64,000 nucleotides of DNA. Origin: Eucommia ulmoides. Taxonomy: Eukaryota; Streptophyta; Magnoliopsida; Garryales; Eucommiaceae. Positions within the stretch are counted from its first letter, which is position 1. Every line of letters starts with the position of its first letter. Location of the stretch: NCBI GenBank assembly GCA_016647705.1, contig CM028326.1, positions 29,275,401 through 29,339,400 on the forward strand, in the 5' to 3' direction. A model generated the notes under the pieces. It had not been told where the DNA came from. It worked only from the letters and a program-made list of their open reading frames with translations, and did not search any database. The translations under genes were made by a program, and so were the position numbers. Positions 5,916 through 36,703 of this stretch are shown here, in pieces.

Positions 5916-5920
5916 GAAAC
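5916..5920. repeat. TSD GAAAC, left copy (element C)
   Basis: GAAAC directly precedes the left LTR of C and is repeated at 29,100-29,104 directly after its right LTR. This marks both ends of the element. Confidence 0.85.
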
Positions 5921-14810: not shown

Positions 14811-16298
14811 TAGTAGCGCGTATATAGATCTCTACTTACACCGCAAGTGTACGAGTCAAGTTTTAGTATAGATTCGGAAGAGTAAAGGTTGTCGTATCCA
14901 TAGTGATTGGTTGAGATTATCATCGAGTACTGCGATTATCATAACCTAATTTTATCTAGGTGATAAAAATGGTTTATAATTAATTAATACTAATACTAAG
15001 TTAATTAAACTAATTATACTAATATAGTGGTATGACTTTATGGGAAATTATTGCCTAGGGATTAACTTCGTCCATTTAAACATGTTCATTTTAATCTAGT
15101 TTACATTAACGGCGTTCATCCTATCCGACAATCTCTGTATCGAAATCTCATTCACTACCTCTCCTGAGTGTAAAGTGAATTAATACGTGATTTCACGTCA
15201 ATGAAGAAGTCCCCCTCAACGTCTTAATGACGATAGGTCACATGACTCTTGGCCCAATGTCATGGATTGCACACTCTCTAACTCCCTCTCAGGTTATTAG
15301 ATCGTCGCGTTATATTTAAACCCTAATCCAAATCCGGGGTTACCTCTCCCGAGTGTTAAACCCCATATTCTCAGTATATCATAACAAGCATAATAAACAT
15401 GGAGAAATGGAAAACACAATCAGATAAACACGAACAACTATTAACAAAACATAGATTTTATATAAACAACGTTTTCGTGAATTACATCAAGCCCTAGAGA
15501 ATATATGTTTAGCTACACATGGTCGTAGCCCTAAATACAACTAAATATAAGCTAAATATATTAAAACAAACAACCAATCTAAGAGAGAAACAAAGAGACT
15601 AGCCGTTATCTGAAGATTCGCCACTAAAACCGCTCCGAGAATGCTTCCTCCTTTTGCGGCAATGTGATCTTCTATTGGTCGAATGGACTTGAAGCTCTCA
15701 AGACTCCCTAAAACGTCAACCTCTTGTTTGGAGAGAATAGGGACGATATTTATAGATCAAAATATCACAAAATATCCTAAAAATATCTAAAATATCTGCA
15801 AAGTCACCACCGCAGCGGTAGGTTTCACAACTTTAGCTACGGGTATGTCGGCAGTATCACCACTGTGGCGGTGGTTGATCGCTGCAGTGGAAGAATAGTA
15901 GGCAAACTCTTTATATTTTGACCGCCGCGACAGTAAGTCACTACTGCGGTGGTGGTCTATTCAACAAACTCTCTGGACTTTCACCGCCGCAGCGGTGGCC
16001 GACCACTACGACGGTGAGATTTTTGCACTCCCAGTACTTTCACCACCGCGGCGGTGGCCTGATCACTGTGGCAGTGGGTCTGCTGCTTTGGAATCTTGCC
16101 TTTTTGCTCGTTTTTCCACCGTTCTTCCACCGACTTTCTCTGATATGATCATTTAAAGACCATTTATCCCTTTTCACCCTAAATACCTAATTTAAGACAA
16201 AATAAATAAAAACGTATTAAAACATATAAAAATGCTATAAAAATACTCAAAAACTAACAAAATCGGCTTGGTAATAAATAGATAAATTACACCTATCA
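14811..16298 (-). repeat. 3' LTR of element B
   Basis: Pairs with 18,997-20,413. The terminal base next to the TSD is changed (TA instead of TG in + coordinates). It contains an array of CACCGC/GCGGTGG modules at 15,805-16,080. Confidence 0.88.
15805..16080. repeat. Array of CCGC(AG)CGGTGG palindromic modules in B LTR
   Basis: About ten near-palindromic modules of the type CCACCGC...GCGGTGG, such as CACCGCAGCGGT and ACCGCCGC...GCGGTGGTGG, spaced 15-30 bp apart. The 5' LTR has the matching but shorter array at 19,998-20,200, so copies were lost or gained after insertion. Confidence 0.75.
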
Positions 16299-16312
16299 AA
16301 TACCCCCAAACT
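16299..16312 (-). promoter_or_regulatory. Polypurine tract of element B
   Basis: The minus strand reads AAGTTTGGGGGTATT directly before the 3' LTR start TGATAGG. This is the form of polypurine tract usual in Athila/Tat-type elements. Confidence 0.75.
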
Positions 16313-17860
16313 TGAAATTTTGTTAGTCCTCGAGCAAAACACTCACACTAAAATAAAAAAACACAACTAAATTAAAAACAAAAACAACCTAAATACAAAC
16401 AATCTAAACATAACGAAATGCGAGTTTTGAATTCAACTAACGACCAAATCATTTTTTCCTCAACAACTCCCAATCATATCGAGTTCAGGTCATAAAATGC
16501 ACCATGTGATGTTCTAGAATTTTGACATTCAATAATGGTAAACATCATTCTAGATCCTTTCAATGTGTGTGGGCTAAACTCAATAATATAGCTATCCAAC
16601 AATCGGATTGGATTATTCACCAACAAAACTCACTACTTAGACTGTAAAGGACTAGGATATTCATATGCCTTATTGGGTTTTACTCTCCACTAATGTAGGC
16701 TTGGAAGTTCAAAAAGATCAATAGGTTTTGGTTCAGTTTTAGGAAAATGGCCAAGAGTATATTGGGAATGTAAAACAGGTTAACTTTGTTAACTTAACAA
16801 TACCCAAGGCACAACACTTGGCACACTCACACTTGAACACCCATAGATAATTTTGAAACAATATCTGAACAGACATTTAAGACCGACATACTCACTTGTT
16901 AAAAGAAACAGAAATTGAACTATATTTACATACATTTTTTTTTTAACGTACCACACCCGCAAAATTATTCGATTATTAAAATTTCACGGGTGTGGTTAAA
17001 ACGAACGAAAAAAATGACAAGTGAGTACTCGAATACTAAACCAATCAGAAGTTCGCCCTAAAAACTCAACCGCTCACTTCAAGTAGCATATACAAATGCT
17101 AACTTGATTCACTCAAATTATGCCTTCAGTTTAGCGATATAAGTTTGGAAAAAGTTCAATTGGCCAGGGTATTTGTTATGTGTTCAGAATTAAAATGGCA
17201 AATAGGCTTTGACATGGTAACGAGGGATAAACATTTAACAAGGTAATCTTCAAAGGCTCAAGCAACAAAATGAATGCCTAAATCATATCTCCAGAACTAG
17301 CTTGCCTAGGATTTCGCCTCAAGCTTCCCCTCAATCAGGTTCTAGCATCCTTAAATTGTCATGAGTTTGGCTAATCAATAATTGTCCTCAAATTAATTGA
17401 ATAACTATATATTGAGTCTATATGCTCGTGCAAATTAGGATCCACGATAACTTTTACCAAAACGCATTGTCAAGCACACAGAACACACATGAATGGGAAT
17501 TACCCTTAACCTCGAAAACAACCAGGGAGTAATATCATTATCGGGTAATGACCTAGATGAACTCAAAACTCAGCATGCAACAACAACAAACATAAACACA
17601 TTCTACACTAAACAAATATGCACACAATAAACTAAACAACATTTAAACATACTAAAATACTACACATCACTTTCGAACTTAAAATAGACAGTATCCTTAA
17701 TGATCCAATCATCATTCTTAACATATGAAATACTGCATGCTAACGAATGGGGTTTAGAACACATACCTGGGAGGCGAGAGAATCTCGTCTCCGAATCAAG
17801 TCAGTAGTGACGAATTTAATTTATTTTATACCTTGGGTTGCCTCCCAAGAAGCACTTGGT
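16313..17860. other. Non-coding internal region of B
   Basis: About 1.5 kb between the gag remnant and the PPT. I see no coding domain. The sequence is A-rich on the + strand with no recognisable repeats, and may be the long untranslated region common in large-derivative elements. Confidence 0.5.
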
Positions 17861-18909
17861 TTATTGTTGTCGACTCGACACGAAGAATTGCTCGTCAAAG
17901 AGCAGATTCCACCCATAGTAAGTGTCGTACAACACTACGTATGGTTCTTGATTTTTTACACCCTCAAGAATAGTAAGATAAGGCTTTGATCGGCTCGTGC
18001 TTTCAACAACACTCCTCACCGGCTCATGTACTTGGTGGGCATGAAAGAATGTTGCTAATGGCGGAGAATGATAAGTGGGCCACATCGAATCCTTGTAGAT
18101 GTGATCGTCTGGGATCGATGGTGGCATCAGAATTTGGATCTCCAATGGTGAAAAATCACAATTGTCAATCCAGACTTGGGTTCCCATCTCATTCGAATAA
18201 TCATATTTGAACTCTTCCAAGCTCATTCCGCTCATTTTCGGTTCCTCACGGTGGCTTTCACATGATATGGCTTGTGTATCTCCTAATGCCACCGTGTCTG
18301 ACTCGACCTCAATAAAGCAAATTAGCTGACCAATTTTTTTTTGAAGAGACGTTACAGTGGCATCGATTTCGGTACAGACCATCTCAATATTGTTGAGACG
18401 ATCCTCATGCTTATTGATCCTGTCATTCGTTTTCCTCCAAACGCCTGAGTCTCCCCCATAAATTCAGGGAACATGGTTTCCAATGCGGGGGAAGACTCCA
18501 TATGTTGGTCCGGGGTGTCAATCCATGGCTCCAAAATGTTGGAATTATCCCCCAAGCTTTGATAGCTTGTTAAATAATTCCAACACTGAAAATCATACTC
18601 GATCATATCTCCTGGTACCCAATAGGCTTCGTCCGCAGTTAGTTGGTTGAAAGAGGTGGTACCATTTCCTCCTTCAACCCACATTTTGGTTGCTGCTAGT
18701 AACCTATCGAGGAAGTTCAGTAGTTGACACTCCCTCGAGAAACGATGGTTTGGAAACCAAAGTAGCAAATCCTTGTATCGATCCCAAGCACAGTAAAATG
18801 GCTCAGAATCACGTTGAAAGAAATGCATCAATACTTGTTGATCTAACATCTTCAAGTACCCTACATAAGAAATAGAAAACAAAACTACAAACAAAAAAGT
18901 TATAAACAA
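17861..18909 (-). pseudogene. gag fragment of element B
   Basis: Two overlapping frames (18,909-18,352 and 18,382-17,861) together read as the core of a plant retrotransposon gag: 'DSEPFYCAWDRYKDLL', 'FPNHRF', 'LLNFLDRLLAATKMWVEGG' and 'LTADEAYWV', which match the 'EAWERFKDLL...CPHHG...EEAY' pattern of Athila-like gag proteins. The second frame adds a helical stretch and an acidic tail but no zinc knuckle. The start at 18,909 is only the first Met; the true start is unknown. Split frames mean it is not functional. Confidence 0.65.
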
Positions 18910-18972
18910 AAGAAATACCTAAATTAAAATTAGGTCATTTACTCACAATATCAACAATAATCTAAAACACAA

Positions 18973-18990
18973 TCCCCAGCAACGGAGCCA
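18973..18990 (-). promoter_or_regulatory. Primer-binding site of B (tRNA-Asp type)
   Basis: The minus strand reads TGGCTCCGTTGCTGGGGA six bases after the LTR end. This differs by two bases from the tRNA-Asp complement TGGCGCCGTTGCCGGGGA seen at 24,410. Confidence 0.8.
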
Positions 18991-18996
18991 AAAACT

Positions 18997-20413
18997 TGGT
19001 AGCACGTATATACGTCACTACTTTCACCATAAGTGTATGAGTCAAGTTTTAGTATAGACTCGGAAAAGTAGGGATTGTCGTATCCACAGGGATTGGTTGA
19101 GATTATTATCGAGTACCGCGATTATCATAATCTAACTTTCTCTAAGCGATAAAAATGGTTTATAATTAATTAATACTAATACTAAGTTAATTAAACTAAT
19201 TATACTAATATAGTGTTATGATGTTATGGGAAATTATTGCCTAGGGATTAACTTCGTCCACTTAAACGTGTTCGTTTCAATCTAGTTTATATTTATGGCA
19301 TTCATCCAATCTGACAATCTCTGAATCGAAACCTCATTCACTATCTCTCCCGAGTGTAAAGTGAATGAATATGTGACTTCACGTCAACGAAGAAGTCCCC
19401 CTCAATGTCTTAATGACACTAGGTCACATGAGTCTTTCCTCAACGTTATGGATTGCACACTCTCTAACTCCCTCCCATGTTATTAGATCGTTACTTTGTG
19501 TTTAAACCCTAGTCTGAATCCGAGGTTACCTCTCTTAGGTGTTAAACCCCGTATTCTCAGTATATCATAATAAGTATAATAAACAAGGAGAAACGGAAAA
19601 CATAGTTGGATAAACACGAACAACCATTAACAAAACATAGATTTTATATAAACGACGTTTTCGTGATTACATCAAGCCCTAGACAATATATGTTCAGCTA
19701 CACTTGGACGTAGCCTAAATACAACTAAATACAAGTTAAACATACTAAAACAAACAACCAATATACAAGAGAAATAGAGAAACCAGGAGACAAGCTGTTA
19801 TCTAAAGATTCGTCACTAAAACCTCTCCGAGAACGTTTTCTCCTTTTTCGTAATGTGATCTTCTATTGGTCGAATGGCCTTGGAGCTCTTAAGACTCCCA
19901 AAAACATCAACCTCTTGTTTGGGGAGAATAGGGATGATATTTATAGGAATTAAAATATCTCAAAATATCCTAAAACTATCTAAAATATCTGTAGAGTCAC
20001 CGCCACAGATGTGGGTATGTCGGTAGTGTCACCGTTGCGGCGGTCGTTGATCACTACAGCGGTGGAACAGTAGGCAAACTATCTGTATTTTAACCGCCAC
20101 AACGATGGTCTATTCAACAAACTCTCTGGACTTGCACCACCGCGGCGGTGAGATTTTTGCACTCCCAGTACTTTCACTACCGCGGTGGTGGGTTTACCGA
20201 TTTGGAATCTTGTCTTTTGCTCGTTTTCCCACTGTTCTTCCACCGACTTACTCTGATATGATCATTTAAAGACCGTTTTAGTCCCTTTTCACCCCAAATA
20301 CCTAATTTAAGACAAAATAAATAAAAACGTATTAAAACATATAAAAATGCTATAAAAATACTCAAAAACTAACAAAACTGGCTTGGGAATAAATAGATAA
20401 ATTACACCTATCA
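18997..20413 (-). repeat. 5' LTR of element B
   Basis: TG...CA LTR, 1,417 bp, pairing with 14,811-16,298. The A/T-rich 'gataaaaatggtttataattaattaatac' block near the U5 end and the palindromic module array near U3 are shared with the partner. Confidence 0.88.
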
Positions 20414-22889: not shown

Positions 22890-22894
22890 CTTCC
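22890..22894. repeat. TSD CTTCC, left copy (element D)
   Basis: CTTCC before the left LTR of D recurs at 28,057-28,061 after its right LTR, so everything between entered as one unit. Confidence 0.88.
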
Positions 22895-24403
22895 TGATAG
22901 GTGTGAAAAACCTATCTATTTCTAAACCGGATTTGTTAGTTCTCAAGCATTTTATTTAATTGTGTTTTAGTGTGTTTTAATGTAGAACACGGAAAGGACC
23001 TCAAAGGGTGAGAAACAAGTGAAAACGATGGAGAAACGGTTAAGAAAATGTGTAAAACAGGGTTTCAGTGAATGAAGACCACCGCCTAAGCGGAAGTTCC
23101 ACCGCTTAGGCAGAAAAGAGGTAGAATGTTGGAGTGCTGAAGGGCTGAACCACCGCCTAGGCAAGAAAACCACCGCCTAGGCGAGAAAGCAACAGAATAT
23201 CTTGCCAACAGCCACCGCTTAGGCGAAATCACCGACAGACTTTAACCGACTTAAGTCCACTGCCCGAGCGGTGAACCACCACTTAGGTAGTGACACTCTG
23301 CACAAAAATATCTGTTTTTAGATATTTTGAAGATATTTCCAACCCTTGCCTATAAAACCCCTTTTCTCCCCCAATTGCTAAAAATGTTAGAACCCCTTAG
23401 ACGTGAGAGGAGGCTCCGGTTGTTCTTGGGAGCTCTCCTCCACCATAATTAGATTAGATTAGTTTTGGAAGTAGATTAAATTAGTTGTAAAGAGTGTTCT
23501 TGGCTGATCCTTGAAGAGCCAAAGGAGGAAGTTCATCAACGGAAAAGAGGAAGCTCGGGAGGATCATTCTTTGGCGAAAGTGGACTACTCCACTTTGAGA
23601 TTTGGATTTTCTTCCCTTGTTTTCATCTTTGTATTTAATATTTATAGTTGGTAATGATGATCTCCTCTTGATTAAATGTTGTATTGGCTAAGAACATGTT
23701 AGTGTAATTTAGAGATTAGTTAGGGAAGGTGTAGTTGTCTAAATACTCATTTGGTTTAATATACGTTTCTTTAACGGTTGTTGTTTTAAGTCCGATTGTG
23801 TTTATCATTTGATGACGATCTTAATATGCTTGTAACAGTATTAGGGTTGAATTTGAGAATCTAGGGTTTGACACTCGGGAGAGGTAACCCTAGATTCGGA
23901 CTAGGGTAAACACATCGTTACGACCTAACGACTCGGGAGGGCGTTAATTAGTATGCAATCGATGACGTTGGGTCAAGAATCACGCGGCCTAGAGTCATTA
24001 AGACATCGAGGGGGACCTCGGCGTCGACTTGAAGTCACGTATTCCCTCGTCTTACACTCGGAAGAAGTAGCGAAAAAGTTTACGAACCGAGATTGTCGGA
24101 TACCCAAACTCCGTTATTGTTAACCGAACGAAATCAAACGTGTATTAAGTGAAAGAAATCAATCCCTAATTAATCAACTTAGTTATAATTAACCCACTAA
24201 TTGTAATTTAGCTTAGTTTAACTTCAATTCACGCTTTCCGTCGTCAGGATAACACGAGACTACGTCAATTGCGGTATTCAATTCAATTATTCACACTTTT
24301 CTCTATGGGAACGATATCCAATCTTCAAAGATCCACTATATTAAAACTTTAGACCTCGTATACTTGCGAGCGTAAGTAGGCGTGCACAAAATTGCACCTA
24401 ACA
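22895..24403 (+). repeat. Left LTR of D (U3 outward, U5 inward)
   Basis: TGATAGGTGTGAAAAACC... to ...TTGCACCTAACA. It has a TATA-like 'ccttgcctataaaacccc' at about 23,344-23,361, consistent with the RNA start of the LTR. Near-palindromic module array at 23,080-23,290. Confidence 0.88.
23080..23290. repeat. CCGCCTAGGCGG module array in left D LTR
   Basis: About eight near-palindromic modules (CCGCCTAAGCGG, CCGCTTAGGC, CCGCCTAGGC and CCCGAGCGG) spaced 10-50 bp apart. The right LTR (27,630-27,870) has one extra module, a 22-bp insertion or deletion between the two copies. Confidence 0.8.
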
Positions 24404-24409
24404 AGTTTT

Positions 24410-24477
24410 TGGCGCCGTTGCCGGGGATCGAACCCGGGTCACCCGCATAACAGGCGGGAATACTCACCACTATACTA
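24410..24477 (-). other. tRNA-Asp-derived sequence at the PBS of D's left LTR
   Basis: After the LTR end and six spacer bases, the + strand carries the 18-nt tRNA-Asp PBS (24,410-24,427), then continues to match the complement of the rest of tRNA-Asp: T arm, variable loop, anticodon arm, D arm and up to nucleotide 8 of the tRNA. On the minus strand the D arm TAGTATAGTGG, anticodon stem CCCGCC and T-arm GGTTCGATCC are clear. The anticodon loop reads CTGTTAT where tRNA-Asp(GTC), as I remember it, has CTGTCAC. The 5' acceptor strand is missing and is replaced by coding sequence, so it is not a working tRNA gene. Confidence 0.85.
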
Positions 24478-24787
24478 GATCGTCGATGGCCTCGGTAGCA
24501 TTTGCATAGAACTCTTTGACCAAAGCAATTTCGCCTGGGGGTGGCGATTTGCATAATTGCTCCCAATGGCGGCTTCGGATTTTATTACGAAATTCCTCCA
24601 GGAGCTCCTTCATTGGACCGAATCCCCGTTGACTTATGCAAGCATGATGTTTTTCGTGTTCTTTGAAGTGGTCCACCGCTTGTTTTAACACAAAGCGGGT
24701 AGCATCAAAGTCAACGTCGGTCAGCACCCTAGGGTTTGAAGTCGACCCTTCGCCTCTAGCCCTCTTCTTAGCTGCTCTTTTTGGCAT
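24470..24787 (-). pseudogene. ORF fragment of D (plant retrotransposon 'VKEFYAN' protein)
   Basis: 105 codons starting MPKRAAKKRARGEG. It has a basic N-terminus, then 'DVDFDATRFVLKQAVDHF', 'HACISQRGFGPMKELLEEF', 'WEQLCKSPPPGEIALVKEFYAN' and 'ATEAIDDLV'. The 'LVKEFYAN' signature belongs to the protein domain found in Athila-like gypsy elements ('putative plant transposon protein'). The reading frame should continue, but at 24,477 it passes into the tRNA-Asp copy and stops at a TAG that belongs to the tRNA D arm. It is therefore truncated by the rearrangement. Confidence 0.7.
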
Positions 24788-26274
24788 TTCCTACAATCAC
24801 AATCACAAAAACCCAATACAACCTCATCATATATGAACATTTGAAAAACATAAACTTTCCTAATCACATTGTCATGAACAAATTCATCCCAAAACGAATA
24901 CCCATTTGAATTTTTCAAAAACAATTTCACAAATGTGACATCCTATATTAATCCACACACTCAACCAATCCAATTAAACATGTGTATCATCAAGAATCAA
25001 ACCAAAAACCCATTGAACTACGAAATCGTGAAACTAGGGTTAAAGGTTTTTGGGCAAAATTTCAAAATCCATTGATTTCTTTGATATAATCATGCAAATC
25101 AACCAATAATTTCAACAACAAGATTAAATGTAATGTAAAAGAAACTTACTTGTTGAGAAATAATGGTCTAATCAAAAGAAAATGAAGAAATCGCACCTTT
25201 TTTCGCAAAACCCTTGATTTTCGGAAATAGGGGTTGAAATCCGATTCTTGGAGGATGAATCGTGATGGGAATGACCACTTTTGGTAATGGACGGATGATT
25301 TTAGAGATTTGGAATGGTTTGGGAGTGAAGTTTTAGGGAGAAGGTGGAGGATTTGGGAGGGAACCTTGCGTTTTTAATTTTTGAGCGATGGGCTGTTTTT
25401 AATAGCAGAAGGTCCACTGCTTATGCGGTGGATACACCACTTGAGCAGTGGAACTTTTTTCTTTAAAATCAATCCTTCTGACGAAATTCCGCTTAGGCGG
25501 TGGTTTTTACGCCTAAGCAAAATTACACCAGTGTGCAACGTTTTGTTCTGCTGTTAATCCGCTTAGGCGGTGATTTTTCCGCCTAAGCAGTGGAGCATAT
25601 TTTGAAAATTTGGTGCATCCTGTATTTTTACCGCCTGAGCGGTGGTTAACCGCTTGGGCGGTGGGCTGTTTTCACCCACTCTGTATTTTTACCACCTAAA
25701 CGGTGGTTCACCGCTCGGGCGGTGGGCCTGAAACTCCTACTTTTGTGTTTTTCTCAAATTTTCAAAATACAGCTCCACCCCGTTCATTTTCACTTCACTT
25801 GTTCAATGTGTTTTAAATTTGAAATACTTTCCCAAACTTCTACACTCCTAAATTCACTGCCGAACACATTCTGAAGCCATTCCGGCTTCCAAAAAGAATA
25901 AATAATCAAATAAATAGTAACACAAATCGGGTAATTTGATGCCCTAAATTTCATTTGAAAATAATAGCGCTTGAGTTACCGTCCCCAGCTGGACTTTTGT
26001 GTCACTAAGTATTTTTCACCAAAATTCCCCATAGACAAGGAATTTGGGCTCAAATGCTTAGTCGGATCAAGATCATGGCTTTGAAATCGGCTTCACCTCT
26101 CAATCCTTATCATTTGCAATAAGCTCCATCTCGGGATTCAGAATTAGCCTTCTTTATCGTTTCTCGCACTGCTTGATCTCATTAACACAATAAAACAAAA
26201 ATTAAAATTAAAAACAAAATAAAAATAAATGTCAGGATTAACACTCGACTACTTAGTCGCAATATCAACTTAGA
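24788..26274. other. Leader region of D
   Basis: Non-coding on both strands. Between 25,400 and 25,730 it carries at least nine modules of the LTR type (CCGCTTAGGCGGTGG, CCGCCTGAGCGGTGG and similar), although this is outside the LTR. The rest shows nothing recognisable. Confidence 0.6.
25400..25730. repeat. GC-rich palindromic module array in the leader of D
   Basis: Modules such as CCGCTTAGGCGGTGG, CCGCCTAAGCAGTGG and CCGCTCGGGCGGTGG, spaced at 15-50 bp, lie in untranslated leader DNA and not in the LTR. This shows that the arrays occur at two places in the element. Confidence 0.75.
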
Positions 26275-26516
26275 ATTCACACTAACCCCACGTCTGCAAC
26301 GCCAAAGACTTGGTGTGTTGACAGAATAGGAAACGATCAAATTACTTTTCCTATATAAAACTTAAGTTCTGAGCCGTTGCCGCGTTTCTTTTGCAATATT
26401 CAATTAAATTCAAACTAATCCCACGTCAACAACGCCAAAGACTTGGTATATGTTGACGGTAACAAAATTTGACACTAATCAAATAAAATTCACACTAATC
26501 CCCGGCAATAGCGCCA
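26275..26516 (-). repeat. Three PBS-like modules next to D's right LTR
   Basis: On the minus strand the block 'ACCAAGT(C/T)TTTGGCG...GGG(A/G)TTAGT' occurs three times: at about 26,515-26,488 (the true PBS, 26,499-26,516, TGGCGCTATTGCCGGGGA), at about 26,440-26,406 and at about 26,318-26,274. The two inner copies keep the LTR-end-like ACCAAG and the TGGCG start but differ after it (TTGTTGACGTGGGA; TTGCAGACGTGGGG). Confidence 0.75.
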
Positions 26517-26522
26517 AAAACT

Positions 26523-28056
26523 TGGTAGGTGCAATTTTGTGCACGTCTACTTACGCTCGCAAGTATACGAAGTCTAAAGTTTTAATATAGTGGATCATTG
26601 AAGATCGAATATCGTTCCCACAGAGAAAAGTGTGAATAATTGAATTGAATACCGCAATTAACGTAGTCTCGTGTTATCCTGACGACAGAAAGCGTGAATT
26701 GAAGTTAAACTAAGCTAAATTACAATTAGTGGGTTAATTCTAACTAAGTTTATTAATTAGGGATTGATTTCGTTCACTTAATACACGTTTGATTTCGTTC
26801 GGTTAACAATAACGGAGTTTCGGTATCCGACAATCTCGGTTCGTAAACTCCTCCGCCACCTCTTCCGAGTGTAAGACGAGGGAATACGTGACTTCGAGTC
26901 GACGCCGAGGTCCCCCTCGATGTCTTAATGACTCTAGGCCACGTGAGTCTTGACCCAACATCATCGATTGCATACTAACTAACGCCCTCCTGGGTCGTTA
27001 GGTCGTAACGATGTGTTTACCCTAGTTTGAATCCAAGGTTACCTCTCCCGAGTGTCAAACCCTAGATTCTCAAATTCAACCCTAATACCGTTACAAGCTT
27101 ATTAAGATCGTCGTCAAATGATAAACACAATCGGACTTAAAACAACAACCGTTAAAGAAACGTATATTAAACCAAACGAGTATTTACACAACTACACCTT
27201 CCCTAACTAATCTCTAAATTACACTAACATGTTCTTAGCCAATACAACATTTAATCAAGAGGAGATCATTATTACCAACTATAAATATTAAATACAAAGA
27301 TGAAAACAAGAGAAGAAAAGCCAAATCTCAAAGTGGAGTAGTCCACTTTCGCCAAAGAATGATCCTCCCGAGCTTCCTCTTTTCCGTTGATGAACTTCCT
27401 CCTTTGGCTCTTCAAGGATCGGCCAAGAACACTCTTTACAACTAATTTAATCTACTTCCTAAACTAATCTAATCTAACTAAGGTGGAGGAGAGCTCCCAA
27501 GAACAACCGGAGCCTCCTCTCACGTCTAAGGGGTTCTAACCTTTTTAGCAATTGGGGGAGAAAGGGGTTTTATAGGCAAGGGTTGGAAATATCTTCAAAA
27601 TATCTAAAAACAAATATTTTTTTACAGAGTGTCACCGCCTAAGCGATGGTTCACCGCTCGGGCGGTGGACTTAAGTCGGTTCAAGTCTGTCGGTGATTTC
27701 GCCTAAGCGGTGGTTTTTCCGCTTAGGCGGTGGCTGCTGGCAAGATATTCTGTTGTTTTCTCGCCTAGGCGGTGGTTTTCTCGCCTAGGCAGTGGTTCAG
27801 CCCTTCAGCACTCCAACATTCTGCCTCTTTTCCGCCTAAGCAGTGGAACTTCCGCTTAGGCGGTGGTCTTCATTCACCGAAATCCTGTTTTATACATTTT
27901 CTTCACCGTTTCTCCACCGTTTTCACTTGTTTCTCGCCCTTTGAGGTCCTTTTCCTGTTCTACATTAAAACACACTAAAACACAATTAAATATAACTAAA
28001 ATGCTTGAGAACTAACAAATCCGGTTTAGAAATAGATAGGTTTTTCACACTTATCA
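26523..28056 (-). repeat. Right LTR of D (inverted)
   Basis: The reverse complement of this segment matches 22,895-24,403 over its length, with U3 at the right outer edge and U5 at the left inner edge. It contains the CCGCC module array at 27,630-27,870. Confidence 0.88.
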
Positions 28057-28074
28057 CTTCCATAGACGGCGCCA
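28057..28074 (-). promoter_or_regulatory. Primer-binding site of element C
   Basis: The minus strand reads TGGCGCCGTCTATGGAAG, three bases after the C 5' LTR end. It is of the TGGCGCCGTC form common in Tat elements; I do not assign the tRNA. D is inserted at its last five bases, which form the TSD CTTCC. Confidence 0.75.
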
Positions 28075-28077
28075 AAC

Positions 28078-29099
28078 TATTGATGCCGAATTTTGGATGA
28101 CTTCAACAGTATGGTCTGGTCAGCGCTGGTGGAGTTGGAGAGGTCTGAAATAGAGATCTTCAATCCCTGGAGCTTCTTATCCACAGAGAGGTCCCTAGCC
28201 GAGAAGGGACGGGCCTGAATTGAAATGGACCCAAAAGCCTCCTATGCCGAGAAGATGATGACTAGAACACCTTGAGACTTGAGGAAAAGTAAATCAGAGC
28301 TTGAGATGGGGCAATTTTGAGATGGGGAGCAGTTGGAAATCTGCACAAAGGACTTACCAGGATGATCCCGACATGTCCTCTCTGGCGTGAGAATCAACGT
28401 ATGGGGGAAAATTTATAGGAAAGCTACCGAGAAAAGGCCGAAAAATTTGTCTACCTTTGGGAAATTGTATGTCCTCCTATTTATAGGTAGGGAGTGGATT
28501 AGCTTAAAGGCTTAAGCATAGATTAGTGTCTCATCAATATCGCATCAATGTACCAACTTGGTAAGTAGCCAATGAGAGGGTGCCAAGGAGCTTTTTACTT
28601 TGGCCATATTTAGGGATATTTTGGGATATTTATGGGGATATTTAGGAGATATTTTGGGTTAGGAAAATGAGCCAGCACATAAACCGAGGAAGACACTATC
28701 CTACTGTAGCTGAGATGAGGAGTCTAATTCTTTCCCTTTCCGGATAGCCAGAGACGAGAAGGGAGGGTTATGCAAAGCTTTCTACCCTGCCCTTCTTGGG
28801 TAGTCAGAGATAAGAAGGGGGGCCTTACTCGAGTATATTTACGGAGTAGATCCCCGAGATAGGCGACACCATTGTAGAGAATACCAAGATAGGGAATGAT
28901 TCCCCATCCCGCTGGTGGCTTGCTGGCTCATCCTGGAGTGTATTGAGGCCTTTGAGATGGCTGAAATGGATGGAGATGTCCCTCTGCTTGGTGTAATCTT
29001 TATACTTAATCTTTGGTATGGCTTAATCTTAGTGGGCAGTCATGGACACATGGCGGTCTTCAATTGGTTGCGTTGGGATGACCATTTTTACACTCATCA
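28078..29099 (-). repeat. 5' LTR of element C
   Basis: Matches 5,921-7,013 over its length. It is shorter mainly because it has fewer 'gggatatttatgg' repeats. Followed by TSD GAAAC at 29,100-29,104. Confidence 0.88.
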
Positions 29100-30030: not shown

Positions 30031-30367
30031 TTTTTTGAGTAAAACAAGTTTTCTTAAAAAAGCTTAGAAAATTATTTCCTAGTAGCATTAAGACTCCCAT
30101 TGTATTTTGTTGGTATATGAGCGGTATTTTAATATATCGGTCTCCAAATAGTATTATGATATTTGTAGCCACAATATTTAGGTCTAAAGGTCTTCCTTCA
30201 AATCCTTTGGCTTTTATAGTTAATTTTTTAGTCTGTTTCCACATTTTATGGGGTAATACTATTTTATTCATTAAGCAAATATCGGCACCAGTATCCAAGA
30301 GTCAAGGTATGTAAATGATATTATTGTCAATAACAATTCCAATTTTGAAAAAGATTGGGTTTCTCAT
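30031..30367 (-). pseudogene. EPRV pol ORF, N-terminal protease part
   Basis: The ATG at 30,367 overlaps the stop of the movement-protein ORF (ATGA). After about 20 codons there is a TGA (30,304-30,302), directly followed by the retropepsin active site 'LLDTGADIC'. Further on are 'NIVATNIIILFGDRYI' and the flap-end type motif 'LMLLGNNFL'. At about 30,031 the frame leaves pol and runs into the 76-bp repeat, so the remainder of the protease-RT link is missing here. The RT part of the same gene lies at the other end of the insertion (38,087), as expected for a circular genome opened inside pol. Confidence 0.75.
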
Positions 30368-31704
30368 ATAATTCTTGGAGCATGTATTTCTTCATTTGCT
30401 ATGGTAAGAATTATTGAATTATAAGTAATTTTGTAAGGATAGCAGTGATCAAGAAAGTTATTTCCTAGTAACAATTCCATTTTTTCGTCTTTGTCTAAAT
30501 GTATAGGGAACAGTAATTCTTTATTTCCAATGATTAAAGGGATTTCAGCAGTATGTGTTATTGTGTGTTTAAATCCATTAAGATCTTTGTAGACATAAAT
30601 TTCTTTTAGTTCATTTTTAGGTATTTCATTCGATATCTTATAAGGGGATATATGACTAACAGATGCTCCAGTATCGATTAGGGCTTCTACTTCTTTTAAA
30701 TCATTTCCATTGAAATATTTTACTTTAATCTTATAGATAGGAACATCAACTTTCTTTTCAATCATTCGTCTATCTATAGAACATTCTCCTATTTCTCCAT
30801 CAGTTATCTTTAAAGAAGAAATTCTTTTAATTTTTCCAAAGTAATTAGTATTATCGAGATCAGGTAACATTCTTCTAGATTTTCCATAATTATTAAAGTC
30901 AGATAATCTGGCTATATTAATATCAGGTTTTTTAGTAATATTTAATTTCCAATCAGTAGGCAAATCATTTTCTGTTATCAAGTCTGGTTTATAAATATTA
31001 GCAAAAGGTTCAAAACTTTTATCAATTTTGATAAATTCATGTTTCGTAAATTTATCGCTATGGTGACTATTACTAAGAAAATATCCAACATGGTAGGTTA
31101 TGGAGTAAAGAAATCTTCCTTCTTCCGTAAATTCTTTTCTAGCACATTCATGGGCTAAGCTAAATATTTCATTTATTCTTGGTTCATGTAGACTAACAGC
31201 ATATTTTGGATATATCTTTATTCCTAGTATTCCTTGACTAAGGTTTACATGAACAAGTCCTAGTAGGGCATCAGTTCTATCAATTATTCTATTATCCATA
31301 ACAGCTGCTTTTATTGGGAAGTTAATTCCATTTCTGAAGCAGGATTTAAAAACAATTTGTATTCCACCAACGTGTATATACCCTATTTTATCTTTATCTT
31401 TTCCTAATTTTTCCAATTGTCTATTAATCATGTTTCTACTGATGAGCGGGATATTTATCTTTCTTTTTGATTCTTCTGTATTAAGAGCAGCTTTGAATTG
31501 ACATTCTCCATAGTAGTAGATATTTTTTCTATTAAATTTTTCAAAAAAGATTTTTCGAAATAACTCATTATTTCCAAATGATCCAATATTTTTAAGTAGC
31601 TTTTGATTAATTATAATTTCAGCCTTGTAATCACCTTTATTTTCATCAGTATCTATATTCATATCAGGATTATTACTCGTACTCACTTCCTGATTCATCA
31701 TCAC
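30364..31704 (-). CDS. EPRV movement protein with C-terminal retropepsin-like domain
   Basis: An uninterrupted 446-codon ORF. Residues about 35-230 have the 30K-superfamily movement protein pattern ('IGYIHVGGIQIVFKSCF', the conserved Asp in 'AVMDNRII', 'LGIKIYPKYAVSLHE'). Movement proteins carry virus between cells through plasmodesmata. Residues about 322-446 have a second, separate domain with 'ALIDTGASVSHI' (Asp 344), 'TAEIPLIIGN' and 'MELLLGNNFLDHC' (411-421), which are the landmarks of a retropepsin-type aspartic protease. The start overlaps the end of the acidic coat-protein tail frame. Its stop overlaps the pol start. A fused protease-like domain here is unusual, since another one opens the pol ORF. 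Expression in the plant is unknown. Confidence 0.75.
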   Translation of the reverse strand: MMMNQEVSTSNNPDMNIDTDENKGDYKAEIIINQKLLKNIGSFGNNELFRKIFFEKFNRKNIYYYGECQFKAALNTEESKRKINIPLISRNMINRQLEKLGKDKDKIGYIHVGGIQIVFKSCFRNGINFPIKAAVMDNRIIDRTDALLGLVHVNLSQGILGIKIYPKYAVSLHEPRINEIFSLAHECARKEFTEEGRFLYSITYHVGYFLSNSHHSDKFTKHEFIKIDKSFEPFANIYKPDLITENDLPTDWKLNITKKPDINIARLSDFNNYGKSRRMLPDLDNTNYFGKIKRISSLKITDGEIGECSIDRRMIEKKVDVPIYKIKVKYFNGNDLKEVEALIDTGASVSHISPYKISNEIPKNELKEIYVYKDLNGFKHTITHTAEIPLIIGNKELLFPIHLDKDEKMELLLGNNFLDHCYPYKITYNSIILTIANEEIHAPRII

Positions 31705-31813
31705 TTGTTTCTTCTAGATAGAAAAATTCTTCCTCACTATCAATTTCAGAAATATCATTTGTCTCACTAATATCAGATTCGTCTTGTTCTAAGAATACTT
31801 TTATCTTTGCACT

Positions 31814-33370
31814 TTATTTATTTTTAATATTTGGACATTCATTCGCATAGTGTCCTATTTCTTTGCATGCCCAGCACCTACAATTTTTGATTTTTTCTTG
31901 AGCGGTTTTTATTTCTGGTTTAGATTTTTTATAAAAAAATTTCTTAAAAAATCTTTTTGATTTAAAAGGGGTCTTTGGGTTAAAATTTCTTTTAAATCTC
32001 CTTTTTATCTTGTATTTATTTCTTTTAAATAACTTTTTATTTTGTCTAGGAAAGATATCAGAACATCCGAATTTTTTAGGAGCTTCAGATTGGTTATCAC
32101 AGCATAGTCCAAGTTGATGGTCTTTTCTATATAATTCAGCATTTTTAGCAGCAGAACACCACATACCTATTTGTCTTTGAGCATATTCCATTCTTGTTCC
32201 TAAAGAATCTTCCATTTGCCAATTGGGTATAGATTTATAGCTTGTTATTAATTCTCTAGTATATTGTGAAGGTAATTTAGAAAAATACATGTCTAGATAG
32301 ACTTGTTGTTCATAGGTGTTAAAATCAGCTTTGTAATAATGTTTGGCAAATTCATTAGTGTATACCTCAAAGTAGCACATATTACAAATTCTTATATTTA
32401 TCAAATGATTTATAGCGTTTATTCTATTTCTTCTTTGAACTTCTTCGGCATTTTTATCCCAGAATTGTCCCAAAAATTCTTTTCTAATAGCATTCTCAAA
32501 TCTTCCTATTACTTTAGCAACATCACCTTCTTCACTTGCAGCATCTAGATTCGCAGTAAAAACTCCAGTTCTTATTTTATTTTTAAGAGCAATTCCTAAA
32601 TTAGTCCACCAATTACTAACGTTTCCTAAAAAGGTCATTGGTATCCATTTTGAAAACGGATCTTCAGTAATTTCTTCTTGGTTAAGAGTATTTTTGAATA
32701 TAATTATGGTGTATAGAGATTTTACCCACTTACTAATTATTTCTTCCATAAGAGAGAAGTTTCCCATATAATTATCTAAATTCAAATAAATTCCATTTTC
32801 TGAAATACTTTCTGTTTTAGGTAATTCAAATTTTTGTCTAAGCAATTCCCTTTTGACACTTGCTATTCCTTTTCTAGAATTTCTAAATGCAGGGTTTGAG
32901 TTGGTATTTTCAGGAAATGTTTCGTTTACAGAAGGAGATGTAAAGAGAGAAGGGTCATTTATAAAGTCTGTTACTCTTCTTTGAGGAGGAGGTGTTAATG
33001 TTGTAGCACTAGTAGTTTCTGGTTGAACAGGCTGAGTTGTTTGTGTGCTTTGACCGGAAGTAGTTGGGTTGACTGGTTGTCTAACACCACTAGTACTTAC
33101 TTCAGTGTTCATTAGGACATTTAATTCTTCTAATATTTCTATATCCTCATCACTATTTAAAGATGCAGTTTCATTATCATCAGTATTCAAGACATAAGCT
33201 CTTCTATAAGATGGCATAGGGAACTCTCTTATTCCAATTCTTTCAATTTTTAAGTTTTCTATTAATATCTTGTTATTAATTACGGCATTCATTATTTTTT
33301 CTTGATTATTTACTATAATTGCAAGTCCTTTAGGTAGTTCAGTATTTTCATCAATTTTTTCAATAGACAT
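31814..33370 (-). CDS. EPRV coat protein (gag-like, zinc knuckle)
   Basis: A 518-codon ORF. The N-terminal third is acidic and Thr/Pro-rich. The centre has helical segments ('WIPMTFLGNVSNWWTNLG', 'IRKEFLGQFW', 'QVYLDMYFSKLPSQYTREL') as in caulimovirid coat proteins. There is a long Lys/Arg-rich stretch near residues 440-490 and a CX2CX4HX4C zinc knuckle ('CWACKEIGHYANEC') near the end. A TAA at about 31,816 ends it directly after the knuckle, but the same frame then continues as a strongly acidic stretch up to about 31,686. The coat protein may therefore have lost an acidic tail. Structural protein that packages the viral genome. Confidence 0.8.
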   Translation of the reverse strand: MSIEKIDENTELPKGLAIIVNNQEKIMNAVINNKILIENLKIERIGIREFPMPSYRRAYVLNTDDNETASLNSDEDIEILEELNVLMNTEVSTSGVRQPVNPTTSGQSTQTTQPVQPETTSATTLTPPPQRRVTDFINDPSLFTSPSVNETFPENTNSNPAFRNSRKGIASVKRELLRQKFELPKTESISENGIYLNLDNYMGNFSLMEEIISKWVKSLYTIIIFKNTLNQEEITEDPFSKWIPMTFLGNVSNWWTNLGIALKNKIRTGVFTANLDAASEEGDVAKVIGRFENAIRKEFLGQFWDKNAEEVQRRNRINAINHLINIRICNMCYFEVYTNEFAKHYYKADFNTYEQQVYLDMYFSKLPSQYTRELITSYKSIPNWQMEDSLGTRMEYAQRQIGMWCSAAKNAELYRKDHQLGLCCDNQSEAPKKFGCSDIFPRQNKKLFKRNKYKIKRRFKRNFNPKTPFKSKRFFKKFFYKKSKPEIKTAQEKIKNCRCWACKEIGHYANECPNIKNK

Positions 33371-33375
33371 TTTTA

Positions 33376-33546
33376 ATCAGTCTCATTTTGGGCAGAATCA
33401 TAGTAATCAAAAACAGAATCTTCTTTATCGTAAGTTCCTGAAGGTTCAGCTTCATTGTCTGAATCATTTTTAGCAGTATTAGTGTAATGATCATGTAAAT
33501 CTTTGAGTACTTTCCATTTTATAAGATCCTTAATCTCTTTAAAAAG
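33376..33546 (-). pseudogene. EPRV small acidic ORF remnant upstream of coat protein
   Basis: A minus-strand frame of about 57 codons without its own good start ('LFKEIKDLIKWKVLKDLHD', then an acidic end). It begins where the 120-codon ORF at 33,915-33,553 stops, in another frame. It may be the C-terminal part of that ORF after a frameshift, or a separate small gene. Function unknown. Confidence 0.4.
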
Positions 33547-33552
33547 ATTAGT

Positions 33553-33915
33553 TTAGCTTAAAGCATAGTTTATTAAAGAAAGCTTTTCACTGGTTTCTTG
33601 TTTATAAACTTGTAGCCAATTTATAGCATGATATCCAAACAGAGATGATTCTGGCAAATATACATCGCGATATTTTGGTAATCCAATACTATTAGGCTTT
33701 TTATCAAATTTTTCATCATTTATAACTTCTTCAAATAATTCTTCCATATCTTCTAAGTTACAATATTTCTTTTTATTAATTAAACTTATTATTCCTAGTT
33801 CAACATTAGCAATTTTAGAAAGGTCCTTATAATAATCAAGTATTTCTCCTAAGCTTAAATTTAAAAGTTCTTCTTGAGTTTTTTGCATTACATTTAATGT
33901 TCTAAATTTTGTCAT
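33553..33915 (-). CDS. EPRV small ORF downstream of the primer site
   Basis: A 120-codon ORF starting 43 nt after the primer-binding site. Mostly helical and acidic, with 'ELLNLSLGEILDYYKDL' and 'MEELFEEVINDEKF'. I do not recognise the family. By position it corresponds to the small virion-associated or insect-transmission-type ORFs of caulimovirids, but nothing in the sequence proves that. Confidence 0.5.
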   Translation of the reverse strand: MTKFRTLNVMQKTQEELLNLSLGEILDYYKDLSKIANVELGIISLINKKKYCNLEDMEELFEEVINDEKFDKKPNSIGLPKYRDVYLPESSLFGYHAINWLQVYKQETSEKLSLINYALS

Positions 33916-33919
33916 ATAA

Positions 33920-34348
33920 CTAATCTAGATGATAAGTTTTCTCATGAGTATCAACGGGCTCTGATACCACTTGGGGGTCAGAGGAGCCGACAGCGGAATC
34001 ATTATTAACAGTATAGCCAAGTGACGTAAATTCAACAAATAATTCTTTTTTAACACGTAATTCTCCATCAGGGCAATAATCTCCATAATTGCTAGCTACT
34101 AAATCTTTTAAATATTGAAGAATAGCATAAAGTAAATTAACTTTTCTCCAATTGCTTAGTCGCAAATCTTTATAAGCTGAATTAATAGAGGGCATTTCAG
34201 AATAAGCATATCTTAAATCCATCATTCTTTCCATTCCTTTTATAGCAGATGTTATTTGATCATAAAAGTCATAAACATTATCTTTCATAGCAATGATTAA
34301 TTCGTCAAAAGCAAGCATGAATTTATCTAGAAAAACTTGGTCATTCAT
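33920..34348 (-). CDS. EPRV small ORF containing the primer-binding site
   Basis: A 142-codon ORF whose start overlaps the end of the 100-codon ORF (ATGA). The first 100 residues are helical ('FMLAFDELIIAMKDNVYDF', 'YAILQYLKDLV'). The last 40 are read from the 76-bp repeat and the tRNA-Met primer site, which encodes 'VVSEP'. A primer site inside a coding frame is known for some soymoviruses. The function is not recognised. Confidence 0.5.
   Translation of the reverse strand: MNDQVFLDKFMLAFDELIIAMKDNVYDFYDQITSAIKGMERMMDLRYAYSEMPSINSAYKDLRLSNWRKVNLLYAILQYLKDLVASNYGDYCPDGELRVKKELFVEFTSLGYTVNNDSAVGSSDPQVVSEPVDTHEKTYHLD
33958..33969 (-). promoter_or_regulatory. EPRV minus-strand primer-binding site (tRNA-iMet)
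   Basis: TGGTATCAGAGC on the minus strand is the exact site that caulimovirids use to prime reverse transcription with initiator tRNA-Met. It marks position 1 of the viral genome and lies about 1.18 kb downstream of the promoter TATA box. Confidence 0.9.
33963..34038. repeat. 76-bp viral direct repeat, copy 2 (internal)
   Basis: Partner of 29,955-30,030, lying in its natural place directly upstream of the primer site. Confidence 0.85.
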
Positions 34349-34647
34349 AATTCTCCTTTTGTGGGATTATCAGTTTCTATAATTTCACACAAGTATTTTC
34401 TAATTCTATTCAAAATTTCTATTTTTCTATCATCACGCCTCCTTTCATTATTATCTCTTTGTATTTGTGCATAGGCAGTATCAATATTTGAAGATAGTTG
34501 TATTATAGGTTTTTTAGCAACAAAAGTAAGATAAGCACGTAGTAAGGTTTCAATTTCTTCATGAAATTTTTTAACATCTTTAGACTTTCCTAATTCAATA
34601 CTTTCAAAAGCAGGTATAAATTTCTTCACAAATTCTTTTTTATTCAT
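34345..34647 (-). CDS. EPRV small ORF 1
   Basis: A 100-codon helical, Lys/Glu-rich ORF ('KKEFVKKFIPAFESIELGKSK', 'ERRRDDRKIEILNRIRKYL'). It is the first ORF after the leader of the pregenomic RNA. It overlaps the next ORF by 4 nt, as is usual in compact viral genomes. No family is recognised. Confidence 0.5.
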   Translation of the reverse strand: MNKKEFVKKFIPAFESIELGKSKDVKKFHEEIETLLRAYLTFVAKKPIIQLSSNIDTAYAQIQRDNNERRRDDRKIEILNRIRKYLCEIIETDNPTKGEL

Positions 34648-35421
34648 GATAAGAGATTTCTGGTAAAAGGAAATTTCTTTTTCTTAAAAATAGAGTACTG
34701 GTTTGTAAATATTATGATAAAAGCTTTAGGTCTCGTGATATGTATACTTCTTCCTTACCAAGCTTTACTTTATACCTGTAGAGGGTCCACCACGTCTTCT
34801 TTTAGAACTCACGACCATAGCCTCCAAAAGCCGCTTCAGTATTCCAGTGTCAATCCATGGTACCCAAAAATGCCTAACTCCGGCAAACAGGGCTGAAGGA
34901 CTTCCAGACACAATACCAAGCCTAGATCTTAGTTCTAATAAAATATAGGATAATATCCTCACAGGTGATATGAGTAAATATGCTAAGGAAAATGTAACAC
35001 ATATTTTTTAAACACTAAATACTTTATTTCATAATATATCACAAACTTTCCTCTGGTGAGGAGTTTACAAGCACATTTTTAACAAGGGATTTGCAAGGTG
35101 GGTTGTTCAACTCTGATTCTTTCAAGAGTTTGAACCCCTTTTTATACATAAAATCCTTCCGACAGAATAAAGTTTTAGTACATCACGAGTGTTTCTCTTT
35201 TTTCAAAAGTAAACAGTTTCAAACAAAAACAGTAATATTTCATGTGAGTGAACAGTTTCAGCACAGTAGTAGCATAGTAGCGCCGTCACTTCTGGACAAA
35301 CACAGTGACTCTTCTCGTGAATGAACAGGTTTCGGCATGTGGATCTCTTTTTGTCTGATTAGATTCTTCTAGCACATGATTCCAAACCACATAGTTTTAC
35401 GGATGTCTACATTGAGACGTT
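34648..35421 (-). promoter_or_regulatory. EPRV intergenic region: promoter, leader and poly(A) signal
   Basis: On the minus strand a TATAAAAAGGGG box lies at 35,135-35,146. TGACG-type motifs lie upstream (about 35,280-35,290), and an AATAAA signal at 35,023-35,028 lies about 110 nt downstream of the TATA box. Promoter followed closely by a poly(A) signal is the caulimovirid plan for a terminally redundant pregenomic RNA. The leader of about 460 nt contains a short upstream frame (34,962-34,765). Confidence 0.65.
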
Positions 35422-36703
35422 TTACAGTACTAGCACTTCTTCATCGCTTTCACCATTGATGTCAGCCCAAGCTATCTTCTTTTCAACAGTTTCTTTGCAG
35501 TAGTCACAAGTTCCTTCTGGATGTTTGAGCATTTGGCAAGTTAATTTTTTAACAATAGGGCTTGCTGAGAATTTTACCTTTTGTATCATTTCCATCCATT
35601 TTATAGCAGAGGCTTTTGCGGCACCATAGAATTGACTACACTCAGTAGTTAATATTAAAAGATTATCAGTACTCATAGGGTAAACATACCCTTTATCCCA
35701 TTCGATGAATTTCTTTAGTTTCTTCTCCAGGACATAAAACCCTAACGCTCTCTTTGTAGCAATAAAATGTTCGAGTTGTCCATCTTCAAGGAGTTCAGGT
35801 GCTTCTTTAAACACTTGATTAGGGTTATATTCGGGTATCAGATTAGCACGATTTTTTTGATAGCTGGACTATATGATAAGCATCATGTCCTTTTTCGGGG
35901 GCAGCACTAAAACATTTTATCAGAATAGTATGCTGATTTCTTTGGTCACGGAAGCTTTTGATGGCTTCTTGCACCCTCTTTGGCAATCCTTTTTCAGCAC
36001 TAGTCTTTGGGTCCGAGATAACAAAATCTAAATATCCGAATTCGAACATATTTTCAATTTCGTTAGCAGGAGTTTCGGGTAAGCAGGCCATTCTAGGATA
36101 CTTTCCTTCATGAAAGGGATAGATAGCAGAATCCTCAGTTACTCGAATTTTATAAGCAATTTTAAGGTTGTCAATGTAATTTTGATAAAAATTCTCATTT
36201 AAACATTTGAGCATGTTACTTTTGGCTTTAGAAGAAGAAGAAGCAACTTCAGCAAATCTTTTCTCCGGGACAACAGGATTTGATGGAGGTTTTATAAAGG
36301 GGACAAATTTTTGAACAAGAGAGCTAGGAACCGTAAGAGTTTCCTGAGCTTTTTTCATTTGGTCAATATATTGATTGGGCGAGCGGATAAGGGTAACCTT
36401 TTGCAGGTTATCAATAACTTGGCTTATTGGGTTTTTAGAGTCAGTGGGTTTTGGAGCACTGGATGAGTCATCGGTTTTTGGAGCACTGGACGAACAGTCA
36501 TTATTTTTATCATCATTTTTTGAAGCACTGGAGGCTTGGCCTTCCATCTCTTTTTTCTTTTTAGCACTTTTGCTCTTATGCAAATGAATTAGTTTCTCAA
36601 CAGCACTGAGAAAATAATGTCCTTGCGAACAATATTTCTCCAATGTTTCAACAGCACTTAAGGGTATCTCGATTGAGATCTCTGGAATCTCTTCAGTTTT
36701 CAT
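35422..36703 (-). pseudogene. EPRV transactivator / inclusion-body-like protein, frameshifted
   Basis: The likely start is the ATG at 36,703, overlapping the RT stop; an in-frame Met at 36,799 is less likely because it lies deep within RT. The first frame runs to 35,843, and a second runs from about 35,860 to 35,422. The change of frame falls in an A-run (T7 at 35,853-35,861 on the + strand), as expected for a one-base slip. The protein is Ser/Lys-rich and has 'LPKRVQEAIKSFRDQ' and, near the end, a CX2C ('GTCDYC') and an acidic tail. Its identity as the translational transactivator rests on position after RT and general features, and not on a clear domain. Confidence 0.6.

Follow-up and report, generated by a model that had tools for sequence, protein, structure and literature searches.

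Inverted long terminal repeats joined through a copy of the primer tRNA in a retrotransposon of Eucommia ulmoides

The 64,000-nt stretch of the Eucommia ulmoides genome analysed here (the window) contains a 5162-bp element which lies between perfect CTTCC 5-mers and carries one long terminal repeat (LTR) at each end, the two being in opposed orientations. The integration of LTR elements is understood as the joining of one U3 end and one U5 end, and the question arises how an element with two outer U3 ends entered the genome. The initial annotation of the locus had proposed that a palindromic reverse transcription product with two U3 ends was integrated. The two integrated U3 ends are borne out by our analysis. 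The product, however, was in all probability not a plain palindrome but a dimer, in which two cDNAs of a non-autonomous plant LTR retrotransposon primed by tRNA-Asp are joined tail to tail.

Anatomy of the element and its tRNA seam

The features of the element are the following:
22890 to 22894, no strand: left target site duplication (TSD), CTTCC
22895 to 24403, plus strand: left LTR, 1509 bp, TGATAGG...CCTAACA, U3 end outward
24404 to 24409, plus strand: spacer AGTTTT between LTR and primer site
24410 to 24427, plus strand: ordinary part of the primer binding site (PBS), complement of the 18-nt 3' end of tRNA-Asp with CCA
24428 to 24477, plus strand: read-through beyond the PBS, complementary to nt 58 down to nt 8 of the primer tRNA
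24475 to 24477, no strand: seam with a 3-nt microhomology (TAG on the minus strand), common to tRNA nt 8-10 and the open reading frame (ORF)
24478 to 24787, minus strand: cut-off ORF, whose frame runs for 103 residues up to the seam and represents the start of PF20167, a putative plant transposon protein
24788 to 26498, minus strand: leader and internal sequence, assigned to the right-hand cDNA
26499 to 26516, minus strand: PBS of the right half, 18 nt, complementary to tRNA-Asp with 2 mismatches, of the ordinary kind and not extended by tRNA sequence
26517 to 26522, minus strand: right spacer AGTTTT
26523 to 28056, minus strand: right LTR, 1534 bp, U3 end outward
28057 to 28061, no strand: right TSD, CTTCC

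The inverted LTR pair and the single TSD around the whole had been annotated correctly. When the two full-length LTRs were aligned, as had been suggested for verification, they showed 93.9% identity with gaps and 95.6% without gaps. The outer termini on the plus strand are TGATAGG at the left and CTTATCA at the right (TGATAAG when read inward), and both belong to U3. No polypurine tract (PPT) was found beside either outer end in the adjoining sequence of the window. The inverted repeat consists of arms of 1074, 284, 165 and 64 nt with 92-97% identity. With PBS and spacer included, the arms differ by 52 transitions and 17 transversions at 1532 sites and by gaps of 20, 6 and 1 nt, which corresponds to a Kimura two-parameter distance of 0.047. 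At a substitution rate of 1.3e-8 the element would be about 1.8 Myr old, an age that presupposes identical arms at the time of insertion.

A PBS had been annotated in each half, and both were found, without mismatches in the left half and with the two mismatches listed above in the right half; 100 shuffles of the window gave no match to the tRNA-Asp PBS. The left site, however, exceeds the 18-nt PBS and continues as a copy of the tRNA. Read on the plus strand, the element thus has the order U3-R-U5, tRNA complement, antisense ORF, antisense leader, PBS', U5', R', U3'. The left piece is an LTR with a tRNA copy, and the right piece is an LTR with PBS and approximately 2 kb of internal sequence, corresponding to a reversed ordinary 5' half (LTR-PBS-leader-ORF).

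The tRNA copy was detected by ARAGORN at positions 24411-24485 of the minus strand, where it was called tRNA-Asn on account of its anticodon gtt, and by the Rfam model RF00005 (42.2 bits, 24413-24484) as the sole match at gathering score in the window. Three of its seven acceptor pairs are non-standard, because sequence of the ORF replaces tRNA nt 1-7; in the locus L016 the same tRNA copy extends to nt 1. We compared the seam with five relatives of the ORF (L137-L141), which read GATCTAG followed by CAAGG or AAAGG, while the tRNA reads GTTGTAGTATAG. Their divergence past GATCTAG places the seam at tRNA nt 8-10, and the common TAG is present in all five. Since the anticodon in the other tails found in the genome (see below) is mostly GTC (Asp), and substitutions within tails are mainly C-to-T or G-to-A, the GTT of the window is probably a decayed GTC.

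We also considered a tRNA gene struck by an insertion, and rejected it because the CCA complement is encoded and continuous with U5 and the spacer AGTTTT. A tRNA gene is expected to have a pairing acceptor stem and no encoded CCA, and the copy in the window has neither property.

The cut-off ORF matches the start of PF20167 with an E value of 4.4e-06 and 27.1 bits, which is under the Pfam cut-off of 45 for this family. Three of the five ORFs of at least 60 aa were scanned, and they contained no other Pfam domain, including those of a gag-pol polyprotein. The element is non-autonomous, and since only the start of PF20167 was present in the three ORFs, an integrase would have acted in trans. A protein search with the 105-aa ORF gave no homologue at E 0.001, and a scan of viral contigs gave no relative. 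The right flank of the insertion is a repeat (28057-29099), of which 28074-29099 matches 5917-7013. In the empty-site comparison within the window, this other copy stops short of the insertion point.

Read-through loci in the genome and their outer ends

The genome was searched with a 36-nt pattern, made up of four T of the spacer and the PBS and extended by the next 14 nt of tRNA, with at most three mismatches allowed. The pattern had 90 matches and the ordinary PBS with spacer 12,024, the reversed controls having none in either case. The resulting ratio of approximately 0.75% is rough, since the long pattern loses decayed copies and shorter read-throughs are not seen by it. Of these 90 loci, 78 entered the counts (L036 was dropped as being the same place as L016, and 11 hits were left out). 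Their tails end at an estimated nt 31-75 of the tRNA, which is 75 nt long; the pattern itself dictates the lower limit. The LTR ends vary among the loci, which implies that several families are involved. As a control, a pattern for an initiator tRNA-Met primer matched 18 places (2, 1, 6 and 9 with 0, 1, 2 and 3 mismatches) and its reverse none; these places may be genes or read-throughs and hence give no rate to compare with tRNA-Asp. Ordinary members of the window element's family are present in the same genome, for example one on C6 with LTR starts at C6:10722814 and C6:10728897 and the ORF at C6:10726024 between them, all on the same strand.

What follows the tail was assigned by best BLAST hits to LTRs, a few of which are short. 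In 31 of the 78 loci the tail is followed by an inverted LTR at a distance of at most about 60 nt; six have an LTR further on (five inverted, one direct), and 24 have no LTR hit. Antisense internal sequence follows in four of these 24 (the window, L026, L033 and L094), and the orientation is unassigned in 14; some of the 24 assignments rely on matches 0.3-1.3 kb downstream.

For 22 inverted loci placed near the LTR end by the library (L038 and L040 excluded), the seam was aligned with the locus' own LTR end. The second arm starts at most 8 nt from the U5/PBS boundary in 12 loci, at the PBS end in five and elsewhere in five. By library comparison only, L040 joins at the boundary and L017, L020, L022, L042, L071, L079 and L101 join deeper in the LTR. 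Most seams at the boundary retain bases of the spacer. An integrase would remove such bases at U5 ends, and thus the partners in this class resemble unprocessed U5 ends of finished cDNAs. PPT-like sequence in reversed orientation follows the inverted LTR in L017, L019, L078, L092, L098, L103 and L105 (five letters only in L105), which suggests that a longer cDNA provided the partner with its 3' end. In L013, L015, L027 and L047 the left LTR is preceded by PPT-like sequence.

The initial annotation had also concluded that the integrase accepts pairs of U3 ends and had proposed a genome search for further inverted pairs with TSDs. We inspected the outer ends at 28 loci, namely the window and 27 of the 31 with a close inverted LTR. 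L073, L079, L101 and L071 were left out, the last one because its left flank is missing. Both outer U3 ends could be placed at 10 loci. In another 10 there is PPT-like sequence beyond an arm (L015, L017, L019, L027, L047, L078, L092, L098, L103, L105), at seven at least one outer end was not found (L020, L042, L070, L074, L076, L090, L097), and one is nested (L038). Six of the 10 placeable loci have a perfect 5-bp TSD: the window (CTTCC), L018 (GTGAG), L030 (GTCAT), L106 (GTGGC), L107 (ACGTA) and L040 (TATGC). The left terminus of L106 is decayed, with TA for TG, and was placed with the TSD in view. Random pairs of 5-mers from the window agree with a frequency of 0.00157, and at this rate six or more perfect TSDs among 10 loci would occur with a probability of 3e-15.

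The most telling locus is L040. There, two different families meet. One contributes a 958-bp LTR that carries a tRNA tail of 58 nt, the other a complete reversed element with two LTRs of about 1885 bp (91.6% alike), which is attached by its U5 end; at its far U3 end the same TATGC is found. The window, L018, L030, L040, L106 and L107 share the features of the class, which are a tRNA read-through seam, two outer U3 ends and a 5-bp TSD. Because six of the 10 placeable loci carry perfect TSDs, joint integration of two U3 ends is supported as a recurrent event in the Eucommia ulmoides genome, and the annotated conclusion on U3-U3 pairs holds to the extent that DNA sequence can address it.

A number of read-through loci show other arrangements. 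L038, considered as a palindrome, was rejected, since it contains a nested solo inverted LTR flanked by GTCAC within its tRNA tail. In L038 and L068 the tRNA tail ends directly at a direct-orientation U3 terminus (LTR-tRNA copy-U3), a head-to-tail-like arrangement. At the seam of L074 a tRNA copy stands against a tRNA copy, and both arms are apparently read-through products. L016 consists of two direct read-through copies 495 bp apart (C5:35808079 and C5:35808574), one with a full-length tRNA copy. In L012, L025 and L085 the tail leads back, in direct orientation, to the U5 end and PBS, giving a duplicated PBS region around a piece of tRNA.

Origin of the dimer and alternative explanations

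The origin that we propose has four steps. First, plus-strand synthesis copied U3-R-U5, passed the 18-nt stop and reached nt 8 of the primer tRNA, as the sequence of the left piece shows. Second, over-extension would have made the 3' end unfit for the normal second strand transfer, and the tRNA copy would have blocked the U5 end. Third, a second, partial cDNA of the same family was presumably attached to this end by its own inner end; the 3-nt microhomology is visible at the seam, and the agent of joining, like the second arm as a separate molecule, is what we infer. Fourth, both U3 termini were inserted together, to which the 5-bp duplication testifies, probably by an integrase acting in trans. 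The same route appears to have been taken repeatedly in this genome, by several LTR families.

Several observations weigh against this explanation. A direct-orientation LTR follows the tail in 17 of the 78 loci, so that dimers are only one outcome of read-through, and six of the 24 loci without an LTR hit continue with sense internal sequence (L028, L031, L035, L045, L072, L077). Sense joins would yield deleted or duplicated, otherwise ordinary elements, while antisense and inverted joins can yield U3-U3 dimers. Unlike in the boundary class, the second arm of the window ends inside the ORF and not at a cDNA terminus. The 20-bp indel between the arms means that they were possibly not identical at insertion. 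Finally, four of the 10 placeable loci have no perfect TSD: the flanks match at four of five positions in L022 (GCCAG/GCGAG) and mismatch in L034 (GCATT/GTACG), L096 (AAATA/GGGTT) and L069 (CATTA/TATGA).

Among the alternatives, a fold-back survives best, albeit as an improbable one. In this case the over-extended strong-stop strand would have primed on itself and the hairpin would later have been opened to a palindrome, without a second cDNA. In line with this, the two arms are closest to each other among the LTRs compared (95.6% versus 92.5-94.2% for six others), and several seams lie near the same LTR end. However, the tail in the window joins the ORF about 2 kb past the PBS, a region absent from one strong-stop strand. 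Moreover, L040 unites two different families, the arms of L015, L020 and L105 are only about 75-76% alike, and a hairpin offers a single U3 end, its other end being a loop that would still have to be opened.

The perfect TSDs bear on the possibility that two independent head-to-head insertions were followed by deletion of the DNA between them. The family is abundant (2966 candidate places at first look, of which 40 were scored), but unrelated outer flanks would be predicted, and instead the flanks match perfectly here and at five further loci, with a chance of 0.0016 for each. As the tRNA copy is also left unexplained, we consider such a history highly improbable. Even less credence can be given to an ordinary direct-LTR insertion that was partly inverted later. 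Ordinary members such as that on C6 could have provided the starting point, but an inversion neither creates a tRNA copy behind the PBS nor removes a PPT, and the other loci would each require an inversion of their own.

Insertion of an inverted solo LTR or element of the same family into a read-through tail does occur, as in L038, and L073 could be another case, its second arm starting exactly at the LTR terminus. For the window the probability of such nesting is negligible, since its tail meets internal sequence and not an LTR terminus, the matching 5-mers lie outside both LTRs, and no tRNA sequence resumes beyond the right LTR; most boundary-class seams also hold spacer bases which are not expected under nesting. 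Although assemblers are known to struggle with long inverted repeats and our analysis was made from the assembly alone, an artefact is just as hard to credit, given the 69 substitutions and three gaps between the arms and five loci elsewhere with the same anatomy in other sequences and with other TSDs.

If the dimer of two cDNAs is accepted, the seam could have been made by reverse transcriptase repriming from the tail inside the particle or by end joining in the host. We regard the two as about equally probable and favour repriming slightly, since repriming on the minus strand gives the simplest account of the sense-orientation joins.

Relation to known elements and neighbouring sequences

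The element is presumably of the Athila/Tat (OTA) type of Ty3/gypsy elements. It shares with them a tRNA-Asp PBS beside the LTR, LTRs of the form TG...CA and a 5-bp TSD, and it has ordinary direct-LTR relatives in the same genome; it differs by its inverted LTRs, the lack of a PPT at its termini, the tRNA copy at the seam and the lack of a polyprotein in the three scanned ORFs. The consulted parts of the literature list tRNA-Asp among the primers of plant non-chromoviruses (PMC6317226), state that in Ty3 the PBS is not perpetuated from the tRNA (PMC5371799) and, in the portion of PMC12789967 available to us, describe TG/CA ends only.

According to the accessible sections of PMC13191261, an unmodified primer tRNA is copied to its 5' end, 1-methyladenosine at position 58 (m1A58) is the normal stop, and usable ends are only those at nt 58, 55 or 54. 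Our element resembles the over-extended plus-strand strong-stop DNA of retroviruses in that the primer tRNA was copied beyond nt 58. The retroviral product is a dead-end intermediate studied in vitro and in cells, whereas in the window a second cDNA is attached to it and the whole lies integrated between the two copies of a TSD. At the m1A58 site itself, two of the 78 genomic copies have a T-to-A substitution, and the other A/T sites among the first 31 positions show one substitution (T to C, position 1). This pattern would fit copying of an unmethylated A58 and faithful bypass alike.

Aberrant retroviral DNAs with inverted LTRs, or with tRNA letters at circle junctions, are unintegrated, while those described here are integrated, with TSDs, at many independent loci of a plant. 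In the titles and openings of abstracts searched, a body of text in which subscription journals are mostly missing, no integrated tRNA read-through elements or U3-U3 dimers were found. We claim novelty for the integrated read-through dimer as a variant and not as a separate kind.

The strong-stop model for the origin of tRNA-type short interspersed nuclear elements (SINEs) needs a fusion of tRNA directly to antisense U5-R. On its minus strand the window contains a fusion of this kind, but as part of a large dimer. It is tempting to speculate that in this plant a second, recurrent route into the genome is open to LTR retrotransposons primed by tRNA-Asp, in which plus-strand synthesis is not halted at the primer tRNA, for example for lack of m1A58, and the read-through product is rescued tail to tail, within or between families, as a U3-U3 dimer; the tRNA-antisense U5-R by-product would then be the fusion expected of a nascent tRNA-type SINE. 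We hold this wider proposal only tentatively, and would not stake on it what we stake on the dimer itself.

The importance of these loci is several-fold. With their perfect TSDs, the six loci indicate joint integration of two U3 ends in a living genome, which suggests that a copying mistake deemed a dead end can still be inserted, via two identical ends. The tRNA seam is a fossil of the m1A58 stop step, which is otherwise studied in vitro and in cell culture, and thus genome sequence offers a test of the primer state and of the stop rule. Such elements would probably be recorded as solo LTRs or fragments by annotation tools relying on LTR pairs in direct orientation. While the element in the window is a fossil, its class is the finding.

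Two further elements are present in the window. At 14813-20413 on the minus strand lies a related direct-LTR element with LTRs at 14813-16298 and 18999-20413, which are 83% identical; its PBS (18973-18990, minus strand) is followed by ordinary sequence without tRNA read-through. At 30364-38087, also on the minus strand, there are genes of an endogenous plant pararetrovirus, encoding a movement protein and an A3 protease, a coat domain, and a reverse transcriptase with RNase H.

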